Part shown: piece after piece, positions 31,364 to 62,451 of the stretch
How the letters are laid out: every line of letters begins with the position of its first letter
Position numbering within the stretch: position 1 is the first letter of the stretch
Assembly (NCBI RefSeq): GCF_002005445.1
Contig: NZ_CP014692.1
Span: 2,976,501 to 3,040,500 of the forward strand
Direction: 5' to 3'
Source: Acetobacter aceti
GTDB taxonomy: Bacteria; Pseudomonadota; Alphaproteobacteria; Acetobacterales; Acetobacteraceae
Length of the DNA stretch: 64,000 bases
The notes under the pieces: generated by a model
What the model was told of the DNA's origin: nothing
What the model saw: only the letters and a program-made list of their open reading frames with translations
Database searches by the model: none
Translations under genes and position numbers: made by a program

Positions 31364-31956
31364 AGGACCCCCTTGGTGGACGGAATGACGCCTGCCGCCC
31401 GCTCATCGTATTCGACTGCCATCCGCAGCGCCCGCGCTGTCGCCTTGTAGGCGCTCTCGGCGATGTGGTGGCTGTTACGGCCCGTTTTCTGCGTCACATG
31501 TAATGTAATCATGGAAGCCATGGCGAACGCCCGGAAAAATTCCTCGAACAGTTCGGTGTCCATGACCCCGATCTTTTCGGTTGGGAACACGACCGACCAA
31601 GCCAGGAACGGGCGTCCGGACAGATCCACCACCACCTCCGACAGCGCCTCATCCAGAGGCACCAGCGCATGACCGAACCGGCGCACGCCACGCTTGTCTC
31701 CAAGCGCCTGCCGCACAGCCTGCCCCAGTGCGATGCCGACATCTTCCACGGTATGGTGGAAATCCACTTCCAGATCGCCCTTTGCGACAATCTCGATATC
31801 CAGCATCCCGTGCCGCGCCAGAGCCGTCAGCATATGGTCAAAAAAACCAATGCCGGTGCTGATCGAGGCTTCACCCTTACCGTCCAGATTGACGGCGACA
31901 CGGATATCAGTCTCGGTTGTTACGCGGTGGAGGGCGGCGGTACGGATTTCGTTCAT
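31360..31956 (-). CDS. hisB: Imidazoleglycerol-phosphate dehydratase
   Basis: Dehydrates IGP to imidazole acetol phosphate. The 198-residue frame from ATG 31956 has the usual monofunctional HisB length. Metal-binding signatures are [27 protein letters not shown] and [12 protein letters not shown]. In-frame ATGs at 32013 and 32043 would add 19 or 29 residues that do not resemble the family. First gene of the leftward cluster hisB-DUF2628-hisH-hisA-hisF-hisE-hit. Confidence 0.96.
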
Positions 31957-55840: not shown

Positions 55841-55921
55841 TTGCCTGAAGCGGGCCGCACGGGTCGTCCGCGCGAGATCGAATTCCGCGAAGTGATCAAC
55901 GCGGTGCGTTACCTGGTTCGA
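55841..55921 (+). pseudogene. Fragment of an IS5-type transposase N-terminus
   Basis: 27 codons (LPEAGRTGRPREIEFREV then INAVRYLVR) match the start of IS5-family transposases, where RxGRPR..xxREVxNAxxY is the conserved beginning. The match stops exactly where the IS481 homology on the other strand begins, so this is a breakpoint between two elements. Confidence 0.65.
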
Positions 55922-56504
55922 GCCTTCGGGCGAAATTGTAGGCAGTGACAAAGTCCGCGAGGTTCCGACGGAGCTGGTCATGCGTCTCGTAGTAGAAGCG
56001 CTTGACGGTTGCTTCCTTGATGGTCCGGTTCATCCGCTCAAACTGGCCGTTGGTCCATGGATGCTTCACCTTTGTCAGCCGATGCTCGATGCCGTTTTCA
56101 TCGCAGACCCGATCGAAGATATGATGAAAAGCGTATTTGCACCGTGCCTGATTGGTGAACTGGATGCCGTTGTCGGTCAGAACCGTGTGAATTCTATAGG
56201 GAACGGCCTCGATCAGGCACCGAAGGAACTGCGCCGCGACCATCTTGCCAGCCTGCTGATACAGCTCGACATAGACAAGCCTGCTGGTCCGGTCGATGGC
56301 GACAAACAGACGCAGCTTGCCCTCGGCGGTCTGAACCTCGGCAATATCAATGTGAAAATAGCCGATCGGGTAGGCTTTGAACGTGCGCCTGGGCTCTTTG
56401 TCTCCCGTAACCTCGGGCAGTCGGCTGATCCCGTGCCGCTGCAGGCAGCGATGCAGAGATGAGCGCGTCAGATGCGGGATCGTCACCTGGAGCGCGTAGA
56501 GGCA
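55896..56504 (-). pseudogene. IS481-family transposase, 5'-truncated
   Basis: The reading frame covers the DDE integrase core: YFHIDIAEVQTAEGKLRLFV holds the first Asp (HIDIAE), VLTDNGIQFTNQ the second Asp, and NGQFERMNRTIKEATVKRF the Glu. The N-terminal helix-turn-helix is missing: homology begins at CLYALQ at 56504. At the C-terminus homology stops at YNFARRL near 55921. The element is therefore dead at both ends. Confidence 0.8.
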
Positions 56505-56539
56505 ACATTATCTGCGCGCCCGCTCGTTCGATGGTTTTT

Positions 56540-56675
56540 CGCGCGCCCGGCATCTTATGAGCACCACCATCTCGTTGAGCGTGATATCTTTTTGCGCTTC
56601 GATCATGCCAACGATAAAGGCTTCATGTCCGTCCAGCCTCGAACCACGCGACTGCCCCCGAACCAGTCTCACCAC
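56540..56675 (-). pseudogene. IS630-family transposase N-terminal fragment
   Basis: The minus frame reads GSRLDGHEAFIVGMIEAQKD followed by ITLNEMV, which matches the first-ORF region of IS630-type transposases just after the helix-turn-helix. Both sides run into other elements (IS481 to the left, IS3 to the right), so only about 45 codons survive. Confidence 0.6.
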
Positions 56676-56762
56676 TGAACGGGCTGCCCCCCTGCAGATC
56701 CTGACGTTGCCCCATGGAATGCCCTCGAATTGAAGTAAGATCTGTCCAACTGGAGACAGGCA

Positions 56763-57029
56763 ATGAAGAGATCACGTTTTACGCAGGACCAGATCATCGG
56801 GCTCCTGAAGGAGCATCAGGCGGGTGCGTCGGCGGTCGATCTGTGCCGCAGGCACGGGATCAGCGATGCGACGTTCTACACCTGGCGGTCGAAATACGGC
56901 GGGATGGAGGTGTCGGAAGCGCGGCGGCTCAAGGCTCTTGAAGACGAGAACGCGAAGCTGAAGCGGCTTCTGGCGGAGAGCGTGATGGACGTCTCGACGC
57001 TGAAAGAGCTCCTGGCAAAAAACTCGTGA
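56763..57029 (+). CDS. IS3 family transposase OrfA
   Basis: 88 residues. The N-terminus MKRSRFTQDQIIGLLKEHQA leads a helix-turn-helix (VDLCRRHGISDATFYTWRSKYGGM); a leucine-zipper coiled coil follows (LKALEDENAKLKRLLAESVMDVSTLKELL). GAGACAGG precedes the start. In intact elements a programmed frameshift fuses OrfA to OrfB; here orfB starts in an overlapping frame (57026) but is broken. Confidence 0.85.
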   Translation: MKRSRFTQDQIIGLLKEHQAGASAVDLCRRHGISDATFYTWRSKYGGMEVSEARRLKALEDENAKLKRLLAESVMDVSTLKELLAKNS

Positions 57030-57142
57030 CGCCCGGTTTGCGGCGGGAAGCCGTAACCTGGGCGATTACGGAGCGGGATTACTCGCAGCGGCGGGCCTGC
57101 CGGCTGATCGGCATGGAGCCGAAGACCTGGCGCTATGCGTCA

Positions 57143-57705
57143 TACCAACGGTTATGGTCATCGACCTGTGTGAGCCCACGTTCTGAGACCGATGGATCGG
57201 ATGGTTTGAGGCATGGCGGCAAGGTTGTTCCAGACTGAGCAGGCGGCATCGATGATATGCTTGATGCCGTCGAAGACGGTATTGGACAGCCAGTTGGCGC
57301 GCAGGAACTGCCAGATATTCTCGACCGGGTTCAGTTCGGGGGCGCGCGACGGCAGAAAGATCAGGCTGACGTTGCGCGGCATTCTGAGCCTGGGGGTGGT
57401 GTGCCATCCTGCTCGATCGAGCAGTACGACAGCGTGGGCGCCTCGTGCCACGCACCGCGAGATTTCCTCGATATGCAGTTGCATGCCGGCCGTGCCGGTA
57501 AACGGGAGGGCCCGGCCAGCGGCTTTGCCGCGCGCCGGGCAGATCGCCCCGAACAGCCAGGCATTGTCGTAGCTCTGGTCAGCCGGCTGGCGTGGCCGCG
57601 TGCCTCGCCGCCGCCGTCATCAGCCAGATCCTCCTCCAAAAAAGAGAATCAGAACTGACGCACTACGTCACTTCACATACGAGTCAGTCGCTACATCATT
57701 TGGTA
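57143..57705 (-). mobile_element. IS630-like element inserted in IS3 orfB
   Basis: A 563-bp insertion bounded by TACCAA (57143-57148) and TTGGTA (57700-57705), flanked by TCA on both sides (57140-57142 and 57706-57708). Removing it with one TCA copy restores the orfB frame exactly. It carries the C-terminal part of an IS630-type transposase on the minus strand (listed separately). At about half the usual IS630 length, it is itself an internally deleted copy. Confidence 0.75.
57158..57612 (-). pseudogene. IS630 family transposase, C-terminal part
   Basis: Homology runs from RRRGTRPRQPADQSYDNAWL at about 57612 through GAICPARGKAAGRALPFTGT and MQLHIEEISRC to the stop. The DDE core is present in part: VVLLDRAGWHTTPRLRMPRN (Asp) and LIFLPSRAPELNPVENIWQF (Glu). 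The N-terminal helix-turn-helix and first Asp are missing and no start codon is evident, so it is inactive. Confidence 0.8.
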
Positions 57706-58009
57706 TCACGCCGCCCGGATGATGCCGCACTGCGTGGGCGACTGCGCGAACTGGCTGGGGAGCGACGGCGATTTGGCTACCGGCGGCTGCATATCCTGCT
57801 CGGCCAGGAAGGAATGGCGATGAACCACAAGAAGCTGTTCCGGCTGTATCGCGAGGAAGGGCTGTCGGTCCGCAAGCGTGGCGGTCGGAAACGGGCGATG
57901 GGCACGCGCTCGCCGATGATGCTGCCCGACGGGCCGAACCAGCGCTGGAGCCTGGATTTCGTGTCGGACGCGCTGAACAACGGACGACGATTCCGGTCCA
58001 AAAGAGCTT

Positions 58010-58030
58010 TTAGAGCAGATTATGCTCTAA
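58010..58030 (-). terminator. Hairpin at the IS3/prophage junction
   Basis: TTAGAGCA-gatta-TGCTCTAA is a perfect 8-bp stem with a 5-nt loop, overlapping the stop codon of the last tail gene on the minus strand. AAAGCTCTTTT follows on that strand. It could terminate the tail operon. It may be a structural mark of the recombination junction instead. Confidence 0.4.
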
Positions 58031-58224
58031 TTGTTGATTCCCCCTCCCTGACTTAAATCATAAGCCGGGAGGATGAGAGTCGTAATTCCCAAAATCCACG
58101 TATCCGTAAGGCCATTAAGGGACATAATTCTGTTTGCTTGTGTTGCATCACCCAAATATTGAGCAGCGATATGCCACAATGAAATATCACTAGCACTTAC
58201 GATTATTGTTTTTCCTGATTTCAT
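58027..58224 (-). CDS. Phage tail protein X-like (LysM-like) protein
   Basis: 65 residues. The segment ISLWHIAAQYLGDATQANRI with a following ILPAY resembles the LysM fold and the small tail protein X of P2/Mu-like phages, which joins the baseplate hub to the tube. It lies last in the minus-strand tail cluster, after the hub-like gene. Its ribosome-binding site is weak. Downstream baseplate genes (gpD, gpV, gpW, gpJ) are missing because of the IS junction. Confidence 0.65.
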   Translation of the reverse strand: MKSGKTIIVSASDISLWHIAAQYLGDATQANRIMSLNGLTDTWILGITTLILPAYDLSQGGGINN

Positions 58225-58238
58225 TTCAATTTCATGGT

Positions 58239-59132
58239 TTATGTATTGGAAAGAGAGATATTATCGGATGCTCTTGTGAGATAAGAATTGTTAAGAGATG
58301 TTGTCGCTAAAATACCGGAATGTGCGGTCGCCGCCATCAAAGCTGAGGCTCCGGAAACTAGGTTGTCTCCAGAATTAGAAGCTATAGATGATATTTCAGT
58401 ATTTGAAGCATTGAAGACAGAAGAATTTAAATCGATAGATGAGGAAAGTCCGCTCTGCAAATTTGAGAAATCCAGATTTGAACTTAAAGACGAAAGAGCA
58501 CCTGCTTGAGTGGAAAGGCCGGATAACTTGCTATTTAAGAAGGATACTTCTCCACCAGCACCAACCAAATTGGCTAAAGGAGTTATTTGTCCTGCATATG
58601 AACTCGAAAAGCTTGTGAGATAATCGACATAAGAACTGGTATCTGCAAGTATGCCTGTTGTTGTGGAGAAAGCACTTGCGATATCAGAGTTGAGTAAACC
58701 AACGAGAGAGGATACGGTCGAAGTTGAGACCGAAACAACCTGAGGAATCACTTCACAAAAAATTTTATAGGGAATAACCGTTCCGCAATTGGTGTAGGAC
58801 GCCTGAAAGGCTGTGATAACAACCTTTCGTGTAATTCCGCCGCCAGAAAAACTATAGGCGTTACCGCTGCGCGCCATGGCGTCAAGTGTTCGTGCTTTCT
58901 GAAGAGCCAGACTACCACGAAAAATACCATTCCAGGTTAAAGGCTGATCATAATATCCATTGAGGACTATGACTTTTGCACCGCCAACTTGACGAAAAAT
59001 CTCGGTTGCCTGATAACCACCCCAAAATAATTCAGAAGGTACTTCAGTATCCTGGAAAACAATGGAACCCAATGTAAAATTTTGAATACCAAGAGCCGAT
59101 TCAATTGAAGAAACAATGCCAAGAAAACTCAT
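58239..59132 (-). CDS. Phage tail/baseplate protein (DNA-circulation-like), tentative
   Basis: 297 residues. The N-terminal half has a conserved look (ELFWGGYQATEIFRQVGGAK, NGYYDQPLTWNGIF, KARTLDAMARSG, FSGGGITRKVVITAF, VIPYKIFCEV), which recalls the N-terminal domain of the Mu-type DNA circulation/baseplate proteins. The C-terminal half is low-complexity Ser/Ala/Asn-rich, a fibrous stretch. Start 59132 overlaps the previous stop as TAATG. Named with caution from position between the tape-measure slot and protein X. Confidence 0.5.
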   Translation of the reverse strand: MSFLGIVSSIESALGIQNFTLGSIVFQDTEVPSELFWGGYQATEIFRQVGGAKVIVLNGYYDQPLTWNGIFRGSLALQKARTLDAMARSGNAYSFSGGGITRKVVITAFQASYTNCGTVIPYKIFCEVIPQVVSVSTSTVSSLVGLLNSDIASAFSTTTGILADTSSYVDYLTSFSSSYAGQITPLANLVGAGGEVSFLNSKLSGLSTQAGALSSLSSNLDFSNLQSGLSSSIDLNSSVFNASNTEISSIASNSGDNLVSGASALMAATAHSGILATTSLNNSYLTRASDNISLSNT

Positions 59133-60007
59133 TAAATATGTAACCCTGGATGACTGGGAACACTTTGCACCCATGACATGAGTGCTCCCGCAGGAGGAGA
59201 ACGAAGTGATTGATTGAGTTCAGCTTCAACGAAGCTCATTATTTCATGAAAATCTATGTTTTTTTCTGAATAAATATCTTTTTCTTGTTTGTTAGAATCA
59301 AAATTATGTACATCTGTGTGAATATTTTTATTTTTTTGTAAGAAATTATTTTTATAAAAAGAATTTTTTTCGTTATAATTTCTATTTGTTATATTTTTTA
59401 ATATATTATTCTTATTTATTTCTCTTTTTATATTTCTGTATATTCTATATTGATCTTTTAAATTTTCTTTATTTAAAAATATTTTTTCATTTTTAAATAC
59501 AAAATTTTTATTTGGTTTTTTATTATTTTGAATATTATTGAAATTAAATTTTTTACCATAAATAGGCATTGGTTGAGATAGAAATTGATAATTTACTGTT
59601 TTTGATGCATGTGATCTTGTCGTATTTGTATAATAAAAATTTTTACCTAAAAAATTTATTTTATTTATATTTTTTTCGTATTTATTAGTATTATGTGATA
59701 AGAATTTTCTTGTATTTTTTAAGTTTATATTTTTTGAATTAATGATTGTATTATGTATTTTTGGTGTAGTTAAATTTTTTATATTGTTTAAATTTTGATA
59801 ATTTATGTTTCTATATTTTTTATATAAATTATTTTTAAGTAAATTTAAAATATTTTTATAATTATTAAAGTTTATTGTAAAGTTTTTTTTTAGTGTAAAT
59901 TGATTTAATTTTATATGGTTATTGTTTATAAATAAATTTTTTAAGCTCTTTTTTTTATTATATACATCTAGTCTGAAGGTTGCTCCAACCATTGTAGGCG
60001 CTCCCAT
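59132..60007 (-). CDS. Asn/Lys-rich protein in the tape-measure position
   Basis: 291 residues from ATG 60007, which has a GGGGGG site 8 nt upstream; a longer frame from 60073 is possible but overlaps the chaperone extension. Apart from short ends (MGAPTMVGATFRLDVYN and EAELNQSLRSPPAGALMSWV) the sequence is a monotony of Asn, Lys, Ile, Phe and Tyr codons in DNA that is over 80 percent A+T by eye, far more than the other phage genes. Gene order (tube, chaperone, this, hub, protein X) puts it where a tape-measure protein belongs. No membrane helix or known domain is seen. It ends TAATG with the next gene. Confidence 0.6.
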   Translation of the reverse strand: MGAPTMVGATFRLDVYNKKKSLKNLFINNNHIKLNQFTLKKNFTINFNNYKNILNLLKNNLYKKYRNINYQNLNNIKNLTTPKIHNTIINSKNINLKNTRKFLSHNTNKYEKNINKINFLGKNFYYTNTTRSHASKTVNYQFLSQPMPIYGKKFNFNNIQNNKKPNKNFVFKNEKIFLNKENLKDQYRIYRNIKREINKNNILKNITNRNYNEKNSFYKNNFLQKNKNIHTDVHNFDSNKQEKDIYSEKNIDFHEIMSFVEAELNQSLRSPPAGALMSWVQSVPSHPGLHI

Positions 60008-60153
60008 GAAAATTCCCCCCCATCCATTTGTCCGATAACCACAACAGCTGCAGCTCTTAAACGCCAGTCCCATTTCATGATTAAATCATAAGGGATATTT
60101 GCTTTTAACAGGATTATGATCATTGATAAAGATGAGGAGGATACTAGTTTTTT
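59968..60153 (-). other. -1 frameshift site and extension of the tail-assembly chaperone
   Basis: The slippery heptamer A_AAA_AAC (60147-60153 on the minus strand) sits directly before the TAG stop of the chaperone. Shifting back one base leads into an open frame of 59 codons ending at 59968, including WDWRLRAAAVVVIGQMDGG and FSWERLQWLEQPSD. It has the amphipathic, Trp-containing look of the T part of gpG-GT chaperones. It overlaps the start of the next gene by 40 nt. The ATG at 60078 in that frame has no ribosome-binding site, so a separate small gene is less likely. Confidence 0.6.
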
Positions 60154-60461
60154 ATTAGATCTATATCATTATTATCCTCTGCTTCTGTGGAAAGAAGATA
60201 ATTTTCAATGGCTTTGATCCCATCTGCACCTATGTCGTTTGCTAATGTATTGAGCATATGTTTATTTTTAGGAAACGGTACTGGTACGTTGTTTATGTAT
60301 CTAATTGAACACCATTGTTGAACTATATTCATGTAGGTATCATTTCTAGATCCTTCTGCCCCACAAATTAGAATAAGATCAAGCATTTCACTTGGAATAA
60401 TCTCTTTATAAATAAGCTCCTTCCCAGAATCGCAGATCAATTTAATCTGGTTATCTTGCAT
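60144..60461 (-). CDS. Phage tail assembly chaperone, short form
   Basis: 105 residues, acidic, no membrane helix. It begins 2 nt after the tube gene stop. The position between the tube gene and the tape-measure slot, the size and the alpha-helical character match phage tail chaperones (gpG-type), which coat the tape measure during tail assembly. The end DLIKN is encoded by the slippery sequence described separately; the long form would be 164 residues. Family membership rests mainly on context. Confidence 0.6.
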   Translation of the reverse strand: MQDNQIKLICDSGKELIYKEIIPSEMLDLILICGAEGSRNDTYMNIVQQWCSIRYINNVPVPFPKNKHMLNTLANDIGADGIKAIENYLLSTEAEDNNDIDLIKN

Positions 60462-60463
60462 TT

Positions 60464-60889
60464 TCAGATTGCCCTACGCTGACTAGCAAAAAATGTTACA
60501 GACTGGGATACAACACTTTCAGCCGTAAATTTACCAGCATTCGAAAATGCCAATGTGAGACCACTATATTCAAACTTGGAAGTGCTTCCATTACTCTCCT
60601 GAATATAACAATATAAAACGCCTGATGAAATTGTATTGGAATTCCAGAAAGCAAGCTCATCTGTATTAAATAAATCGTCCAGGGCAGAATTTCCTCTATC
60701 GATCGTAAATGATCCCCGCCAACCTGCTGGCGTATTAAACTCAACAGGAGGCTTGTTAAGAGGAGAAACTTTTTGAGCTCGAATTTCTTGATGAACACTA
60801 AAATCAGTGACATCCTGAATATCGATTCTGTTTCCATTCCATATTAGAATGATAGAGCCTTGTCGGCCAAGTGTATATGAAGTAGCCAT
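60464..60889 (-). CDS. Phage tail tube protein
   Basis: 141 residues. The order IEVxDVTDFS-type strand (RIDIQDVTDFSVHQEIRAQK), VEFNTPAGWRGSFTIDRGNS, then an extended beta-rich C-terminus (SKFEYSGLTLAFSNAGKFTA) fits a tail-tube fold of the contractile-tail type. It directly follows the sheath gene and overlaps its stop as TAATG, which is the classic sheath-tube pair. Confidence 0.75.
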   Translation of the reverse strand: MATSYTLGRQGSIILIWNGNRIDIQDVTDFSVHQEIRAQKVSPLNKPPVEFNTPAGWRGSFTIDRGNSALDDLFNTDELAFWNSNTISSGVLYCYIQESNGSTSKFEYSGLTLAFSNAGKFTAESVVSQSVTFFASQRRAI

Positions 60890-62451
60890 TAGTTGCTTGA
60901 GACCGTGACACCGGCCCCTCCAGTAATATTTACAATAAACTTTTTATTAATACCAAAATAGGTTATACTTATATCCGCTTGTAGAAATCCTAAAGAAGTC
61001 CTGGATTGCGGATTGTTTGCTGTTGAACATATGACAGAGTAGGGGGTGGTGCCTGAGCCGGTACCTATCACGCCCTGCTGTTCCAGATCCGAAAGAAAGC
61101 CGGTTAATGTAGCTTCAACATCAGTGAACAGACTAGGTGAAATAGGTTGCCCGATATAGATCCCCATTCCTCCGGCAAGAGTTTCACTAATAAAATTTGT
61201 GACTCTAGTATATTCGTCTCCGTTGTTTTGTGAATTGCTGGATATATTAATCCCAGCTCTCACCGTCCAGTAGCTTCCTCCTGGAGCTGGATTGCAAATA
61301 ACATCAATCCCATTCGTAAAAAGAGATGTTAATTCAGCTGAGGAATACGTTAAATTCTGTCCTGAACTGACAAGACCTGATTTTTGACTGCCTATAACCC
61401 CGTATATCTGCTTGTTAAGGCTTGGCAGTTGCGGAGACAGCGCACCTAAACGACCTGCCACGAAACCAGTGGGAGGGACAAGTCTGGTGAGAGAGTTCTC
61501 GCTATCGTACCAATACAGCCAATCACCCAGCATGGCCTTCAGGCTATAGCTATCTACTCCAACAGCACTGCGTTTTGCAGAAGCTGCTTCAATAGTCTCA
61601 CTGGGCGCTCCGGAGGTAATCATATAAATACCTTCTGACACACCAAATTCAGCCTGAGCAGACCATGTTGTATCATCGGTAACTCCGGCGAGAACGCCCA
61701 AGCTACATTTTTGACCTCTTAGTGAATACATGCCCGTACGAGTTACACCATCTGAGCCCAAAAGTAAGCTGGCTGTTACCCCACTATTACCATCTGTGCC
61801 GCCTGCTAATTGCGTTGTACTCATGGAAGCGGGAGAAACATCAACGGCAGTGCCTAATGTTGCATTGATTATTTCGCTCGGCCCACGAATAGATGACTGA
61901 CCATTATTTATTGCTGAAACAAAATTCTCCCAAAATGTAACATTTGTTGGTTGTTCAAGAATATTGTCAAAAATTTCTGGTAAATAATTTGGCATATTTA
62001 TTGTTATTTTCCAGCTTTTGGGTGCCGACCCAGCGGAAATATTGAAAGTGATGTTGTTGGAACTTGATCCAGTATATTTTGAATTTATTAAAACTGGATA
62101 AGTTGCGTTGTCATTTTGCGACAAGATTTCTGCAGATGCAGCCGTATCTGTGCCATCGGTAACTCTTACGCCGACGAAATTAGATGCTCCTTGTAAAATG
62201 GCTGTGGAAGCGATAGTTGCCATATCAAATGTACTATCCTGCATTGAACCAAAATAGGTGCTTCGTTCAGCTGACGTTCCAAAAACTAAAGGTGTGTTTT
62301 TTGGACCCCACGAAGCAGTGCCAACGATCCCGATAATGTCGGTTTGAGCACCGGACAACGAGGTTGTGCCACTTGTTTGAATTTGAATATAAAGATCTGG
62401 AACAGCAAGTGAACTGGTGTTCAATGTTCCCGATTGACTTATAACAGCCAT
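60889..62451 (-). CDS. Phage tail sheath protein
   Basis: 520 residues. The N-terminal part has VVGI-type segments (SLSGAQTDIIGIVGTASWGP) and the domain order typical of the Mu/phiKZ-like contractile sheath family: AERSTYFGSMQDSTFDMATI, NFVGVRVTDGTD, then the C-terminal domain with LVPPTGFVAGRLGAL, LTSLFTNGIDVICNPAPGGS and FISETLAGGMGIYIGQPISP. The sheath contracts to drive the tube. Its presence makes this a myophage or phage-tail-like particle. Confidence 0.85.
   Translation of the reverse strand: MAVISQSGTLNTSSLAVPDLYIQIQTSGTTSLSGAQTDIIGIVGTASWGPKNTPLVFGTSAERSTYFGSMQDSTFDMATIASTAILQGASNFVGVRVTDGTDTAASAEILSQNDNATYPVLINSKYTGSSSNNITFNISAGSAPKSWKITINMPNYLPEIFDNILEQPTNVTFWENFVSAINNGQSSIRGPSEIINATLGTAVDVSPASMSTTQLAGGTDGNSGVTASLLLGSDGVTRTGMYSLRGQKCSLGVLAGVTDDTTWSAQAEFGVSEGIYMITSGAPSETIEAASAKRSAVGVDSYSLKAMLGDWLYWYDSENSLTRLVPPTGFVAGRLGALSPQLPSLNKQIYGVIGSQKSGLVSSGQNLTYSSAELTSLFTNGIDVICNPAPGGSYWTVRAGINISSNSQNNGDEYTRVTNFISETLAGGMGIYIGQPISPSLFTDVEATLTGFLSDLEQQGVIGTGSGTTPYSVICSTANNPQSRTSLGFLQADISITYFGINKKFIVNITGGAGVTVSSN

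Follow-up and report, generated by a model that had tools for sequence, protein, structure and literature searches.

We analysed a stretch of 64,000 nucleotides (nt) from Acetobacter aceti (contig NZ_CP014692.1, positions 2,976,501 to 3,040,500; hereafter the window), which sits in a 3.7-Mb single-contig genome and carries the tail genes of a prophage. Judged by comparison with related loci, a small gene between the tail tube and tape-measure positions is very probably read in two ways, with a programmed -1 frameshift yielding a short and a long tail-assembly chaperone similar to the gpG/gpGT pair of phage lambda; we put the probability of this reading at roughly 0.92. The features on which the argument turns are the following:

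60144..60461, minus strand: short chaperone open reading frame (ORF), 0 frame, 105 amino acids (aa); matches phrog_20383 (unknown function) with expect value (E) 1.4e-9; weak fold match to tail-assembly chaperones
60147..60153, minus strand: slippery heptamer A_AAA_AAC in the X_XXY_YYZ register
60144..60146, minus strand: 0-frame stop codon TAG, adjoining the heptamer, as read from the sequence
59968..60147, minus strand: -1 frame extension, the putative second domain of a 164-aa form; 59 codons and a stop
59132..60007, minus strand: ORF at the tape-measure position, 291 aa; hypervariable, with a conserved C-terminus

Slip site and predicted product

The 105 codons of the short ORF (60144-60461, minus strand) end in ATA AAA AAC TAG, and A_AAA_AAC at 60153-60147 stands in the right register for a -1 slip. 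After such a slip the -1 frame is open for 59 codons, up to a stop at 59968-59970, and the fusion would comprise 105 + 59 = 164 residues. The original prediction had claimed a perfect X_XXY_YYZ heptamer before the stop, a -1 frame open for 59 codons and a 164-residue product, and the sequence confirms the heptamer with its register as well as both lengths. Taken alone, the heptamer at the stop is only suggestive, because this AT-rich prophage has 38 in-frame X_XXY_YYZ heptamers in the 1834 codons of seven of its genes (25 in the AT-rich next ORF, one at the chaperone stop and 12 others).

Conservation among relatives

Related loci were collected with the tube protein as anchor. The sources were genome contigs (13 loci), viral contigs (8), the phage phiKX1 and the genus (22 places in 18 of 49 genomes). 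In a search of the family, 165 of 397 Acetobacteraceae genomes had a tube match; from these, 30 loci (four of them already in the set) and then 60 more were taken, mostly from the better-scoring end of the list of tube matches. Of the 134 sequences collected, 132 have the tube gene, and the remaining two (L024 and L025) are flanking sequences of the window itself. From 105 loci having the heptamer at the stop, a profile was built for each of the two domains, and these profiles find both domains in 131 of the 132 tube sequences; L016 runs off a contig edge. Once duplicates were removed, 109 distinct loci remained.

An X_XXY_YYZ heptamer is present in all 109 distinct loci: A_AAA_AAC in 78, G_GGA_AAC in 27, A_AAA_AAT in three (a group that includes the near-copies L016 and L017) and A_AAA_AAG in one. 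By this count, its presence is not chance. The 0-frame stop adjoins the heptamer in 100 loci, lies 39 nt on in seven (L043-L046, L091, L096 and L100, in which the heptamer is kept) and 18 nt on in two. The second domain lies in the -1 frame in 107 of the 108 loci that could be judged; the sole exception, L068, has an intact heptamer and a second domain that is broken by an insertion or deletion and reads in +1. A further scan of viral contigs, partly overlapping these loci, gave 30 loci, one of which (L135) is cut by a contig end. Both domains were found in 29, and all 29 have the -1 relation and the heptamer.

Changes in the signal were counted by parsimony on a tree of the tube and both chaperone domains from 107 loci. 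There are at least four switches of heptamer class between A_AAA_AAC and G_GGA_AAC, and at least three changes in the distance of the stop. What is kept is the slip rule; its exact letters and the closeness of the stop are not. Codon use around the site can be read in the same light. The window belongs to a clade of 15 Acetobacter loci (support 1.0), in which ATA makes up 20% of Ile codons, yet is the codon ahead of the slip in all 15. Twelve of these 15 loci use TAG as the stop that follows the heptamer, versus three of the 85 others with an adjacent stop. In 33 loci with an A-type heptamer and a GC content of at least 0.6, GCA precedes the slip in 30; there GCA accounts for 9% of Ala codons and AAA for 21% of Lys codons. 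These GC-rich loci were picked for their A-type heptamer, and the figures show what it costs to keep these letters; they are not an independent test.

Selection on the extension

The extension was compared in all three frames by the ratio of nonsynonymous to synonymous substitution rates (dN/dS). In five close loci, with 54 codons pooled, the ratio is 0.064 in the -1 frame, 1.31 in the 0 frame and 2.35 in the +1 frame, and synonymous changes are many (proportion of synonymous differences, pS, 0.455). For the last 30 codons in the same loci, it is 0.062 in -1 versus 2.43 in +1, in which the next ORF is read. Three musti-like loci give 0.103 in -1 versus 3.89 and 1.76, and the very close pair L006 and L008 gives 0.53 in -1 and 0.55 in +1, with too few changes to discriminate. 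By these ratios, purifying selection acts on the extension in the -1 frame alone.

The GC content is 0.496 over 59968-60080, 0.33 in the chaperone ORF and 0.135 over 59270-59967, so that the GC-richer patch is real. The earlier suggestion that this patch, at 59970-60080, reflects coding in the -1 frame, not in the frame of the next ORF, is upheld by the dN/dS, which is low in -1 alone. The same original prediction had placed a gpG/gpG-T-type slip between the tube and tape-measure positions, and this is now supported by the heptamer, the conservation of the -1 frame and the gene order (sheath, tube, chaperone, extension, tape-measure position). It had also proposed an alignment of related prophages as a check; none of those collected here combines an intact short ORF with a closed -1 frame or a missing heptamer (heptamer 109/109, -1 frame 107/108, the exception being L068 with its broken second domain).

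Probable stimulatory signals and their absence from the window's clade

Across 107 loci, the 60 nt from +5 past the heptamer have a mean folding z of -3.89 relative to shuffled sequences, and at six other offsets the mean lies between -0.42 and -0.04. The stem begins 6-7 nt past the heptamer and has a core of 8 base pairs, GCACCCCG/CGGGGTGC, the inner pairs of which covary. This was seen in an alignment of 77 loci, which omits six of the 83 adjacent-stop loci outside the window's clade (L023, L056-L058, L103 and L117) and the nine displaced-stop loci. Changes on both sides of the stem occupy 125 cells versus 65.7 in shuffles and the covariation score is 0.245 versus 0.148, levels reached by none of 500 shuffles, which ignore relatedness among the loci. 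The excess is smaller when pairs with changes on both sides are counted (11 versus 9.2, reached by 35 of 500 shuffles). When the stem partners are slid, they pair in at most 52.8% of cells, versus 80.1% for the true stem.

Upstream of the heptamer, complementarity to the anti-Shine-Dalgarno sequence in 92 loci is above that of synonymous resampling at offset -15 (z -4.5) and below it at offsets -10 and -9; offsets -30 and -29 were excluded from the comparison. Outside the window's clade, the stem-loop probably aids the slip, and the Shine-Dalgarno-like stretch about 15 nt before the heptamer perhaps does so too.

In the 15 loci of the clade the stem is absent. Simple folds without pseudoknots give a minimum free energy over +4 to +62 of -1.0 to -15.7 (-2.5 in the window), and in all 93 loci outside the clade the value is -16.4 or lower, with a median of -30.5. 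The upstream Shine-Dalgarno-like excess is likewise missing from the clade, and no replacement stimulatory signal was found there by simple folds, pseudoknots lying outside the models. On the simplest reading of these sequences, the stem-loop went by one loss in the clade, which retains the heptamer and the -1 coding despite the missing stem. Known -1 slips can lack a stimulatory structure. The absence of the stem lowers the slip rate to be expected in the clade; it does not lower the frameshift reading itself.

Proposed mechanism and alternatives

If a programmed frameshift operates here, the majority of ribosomes would stop at TAG and yield the 105-aa short form. A minority would slip by -1 on A_AAA_AAC, both tRNAs re-pairing, and would continue into the 164-aa form with its extra domain of 59 residues. 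If the lambda gpG/gpGT pair is a guide, the tape-measure protein may be coated by many copies of the short form, the long form may recruit tube subunits, and the slip rate would set the ratio of the two. We infer that the slip takes place in this host, how often it does so, what the two forms bind and that the next ORF is the tape measure.

The second domain might instead be a separate gene, translated from an internal start by re-initiation or coupling, with the heptamer incidental. The window's extension has an in-frame ATG at 60123, and the record of phiKX1 annotates the domain as a coding sequence (CDS) of its own from an internal ATG. However, 72 of 107 loci have no ATG within the first 25 codons from the heptamer, and the first ATG, GTG or TTG is scattered from codon 7 to codon 23, with none in three loci. 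A separate gene would also leave unexplained why all 109 loci have the heptamer, why its class has switched and why there is a stem-loop, and we consider it very improbable. A shade less credible still is transcriptional slippage, in which RNA polymerase slips on the A run to give two mRNAs and two products. The window and the A-type loci do carry a run of six A, but 27 of the 109 distinct loci have GGGAAAC, with no A run, in the same place and with the same frame relation; the stem-loop and its spacing from the heptamer suit a ribosome.

A stronger competitor, although in our view unlikely, is that the signal in the window is a fossil: the stimulators are lost, the phage is broken and little or no long form is made. 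In keeping with this, none of the 15 clade loci shows the stem-loop or the upstream signal, and the prophage is probably defective, to judge by its genes. The large terminase is split into two ORFs just right of the window (L024, 5902-6789 and 6843-7235), which match successive parts of phrog_2, 264-364 and 393-596. A cluster of transposase-family ORFs at 55896-58056 of the window (rve, HTH_Tnp_1, DDE_3 and HTH_21) adjoins the LysM gene and ends the tail module. Because of the split terminase and the transposase ORFs, the window copy may be silent even with the signal working in intact relatives. Against a fossil stand the retention of the heptamer in 15 of 15 clade loci, with disfavoured codons, and the low dN/dS of the extension in five loci (0.064, with pS 0.455). 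These observations make it likelier that the signal worked recently in the clade, but they do not speak for the window copy.

Probable identity of the chaperone

The predicted fold of the short protein weakly favours tail-assembly chaperones. When it was used in Foldseek, the first PDB row was 2ob9, the HK97 tail assembly chaperone, and the first PDB rows in VIA-align were 3klu (yqbN), 5ir0 and 2ob9; the viral structure rows include named tail assembly chaperones. Scores were weak in all of these searches. Pfam has no match for the window's short protein, and 29 relatives gave only rows with E 0.011 or worse. No PHROG named as a tail-assembly chaperone matched; the PHROG match of the short protein is phrog_20383, and the extension matches no Pfam or PHROG profile. 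The position between the tube and tape-measure genes fits, with the sheath named by phrog_23 and the tube and tape measure by position only.

The ORF at the tape-measure position

Among the window and the four loci closest to it (L002, L003, L017 and L018), the sheath, the tube, both chaperone domains and the protein at 58239-59132 average 76-96% identity, with dN/dS of 0.02-0.10. The ORF at the tape-measure position has 39% identity and dN/dS of 0.67 in the same five loci; its middle is unalignable by eye, and some of the conserved part is owed to the overlap of its first residues with the extension. Its C-terminus is conserved (RSPPxGSLMSWVQSVPSYPGLHI and similar), and its length is 283-296 aa in the five loci, lengths being dependent on the start-codon rule. 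For the window, the ATG at 60007 was picked as the presumed start by way of the stretch GGGGGGGAA that precedes it. The resulting 291-aa ORF is rich in Asn and Lys, has a GC content of 0.20 and no PHROG match at E 0.01; the probability that 291 random codons of its base composition would stay open is about 5e-14.

The ORF was recovered in 10 of the 15 clade loci, and the other five sequences end 99-1004 nt past the extension. The GC-richer clade members L005-L008 have an ORF of 355-439 aa at this place, rich in Ser and Arg and with a similar C-terminus. In L004, about 750-910 nt past the tube end, the ORF contains a long simple repeat of alternating Ser-Asn.

A tape measure held in length but barely in sequence would explain the pattern. 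A more speculative picture, to which we give rather less than even odds, is that the tail ruler of the clade is a disordered, near sequence-free chain fixed in length and carrying a conserved C-terminal hook, with a chaperone pair made by a bare-heptamer -1 slip that has lost its stem-loop and upstream stimulator. If true, the clade is a natural experiment on the minimal sequence needed for a tape measure and for a frameshift signal. The hypervariable ORF also bears on how tape measures control tail length.

Related systems and significance

According to PMC5009743, lambda gpG and gpGT are made in a ratio of 30:1 and the frameshift is widely conserved in long-tailed phages. The window resembles the lambda case as given there in that one gene, between the tube and tape-measure positions, would specify a short form and a -1 extended form, and in having an X_XXY_YYZ heptamer close to the end of the first frame (PMC5009743). 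It differs in that the window's protein has no Pfam match and in that most relatives here have a strong stem-loop and a 0-frame stop adjoining the heptamer. The lambda heptamer is G_GGA_AAG. Signals of the dnaX type have three parts, namely a Shine-Dalgarno-like stretch upstream, the heptamer and a stem-loop. The relatives outside the window's clade show all three; the clade, unlike them, shows the heptamer alone.

The Komagataeibacter phages phiKX1 and phiKX2 have 35.6% identity with the window in the chaperone and 37.2% in the tube. phiKX1 shares the heptamer, which lies at 31714, as well as the extension; unlike the window's prophage, it is a 53-kb phage in which a stem-loop follows the heptamer, and its extension is followed by genes of 171 and 742 aa. 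Its record (L023 20330-20509, equal to LC644975 31738-31917) annotates the extension as a separate hypothetical CDS, which lies in the frame reached from the 31714 heptamer, and annotates no frameshift. Inducible myovirus-type phages of acetic acid bacteria, phiKX1 included, are the subject of PMC8566455, a paper that nowhere uses the words frameshift, chaperone or tape measure. A literature search of open-licence PMC papers found no description of a frameshift in the phrog_20383 family.

Frameshifted tail chaperones have long been known; this family had carried no label, and the history of its slip signal is unusual. The analysis suggests a likely function for the phrog_20383 family, which adjoins the tail tube in many Acetobacteraceae genomes, and also for the second domain, annotated as a stray ORF in one phage record. 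The family moreover records the evolution of a frameshift signal, its letters swapped at least four times, its stop moved and its stem-loop lost in one clade.

Neighbouring genes

The remaining genes of the tail module in the window are listed below. The genes for the portal and major head protein and the two-ORF large terminase lie just outside the window.

60889..62451, minus strand: tail sheath, 520 aa; phrog_23 (tail sheath), E 8.5e-44
60464..60889, minus strand: tail tube candidate, 141 aa; phrog_12993 (unknown function), E 1.1e-34; named by its position after the sheath
58239..59132, minus strand: conserved phage protein of unknown function, 297 aa; phrog_21362, E 3.2e-26, and phrog_36820, E 1.3e-25
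58027..58224, minus strand: small LysM protein, 65 aa; PF01476, E 0.0018 (below the curated cut-off), and phrog_28233, E 4.7e-16

By position only, the protein at 58239-59132 may be similar to P2 gpU. The closest named loci are from Acetobacter, with a tube identity of 98%.
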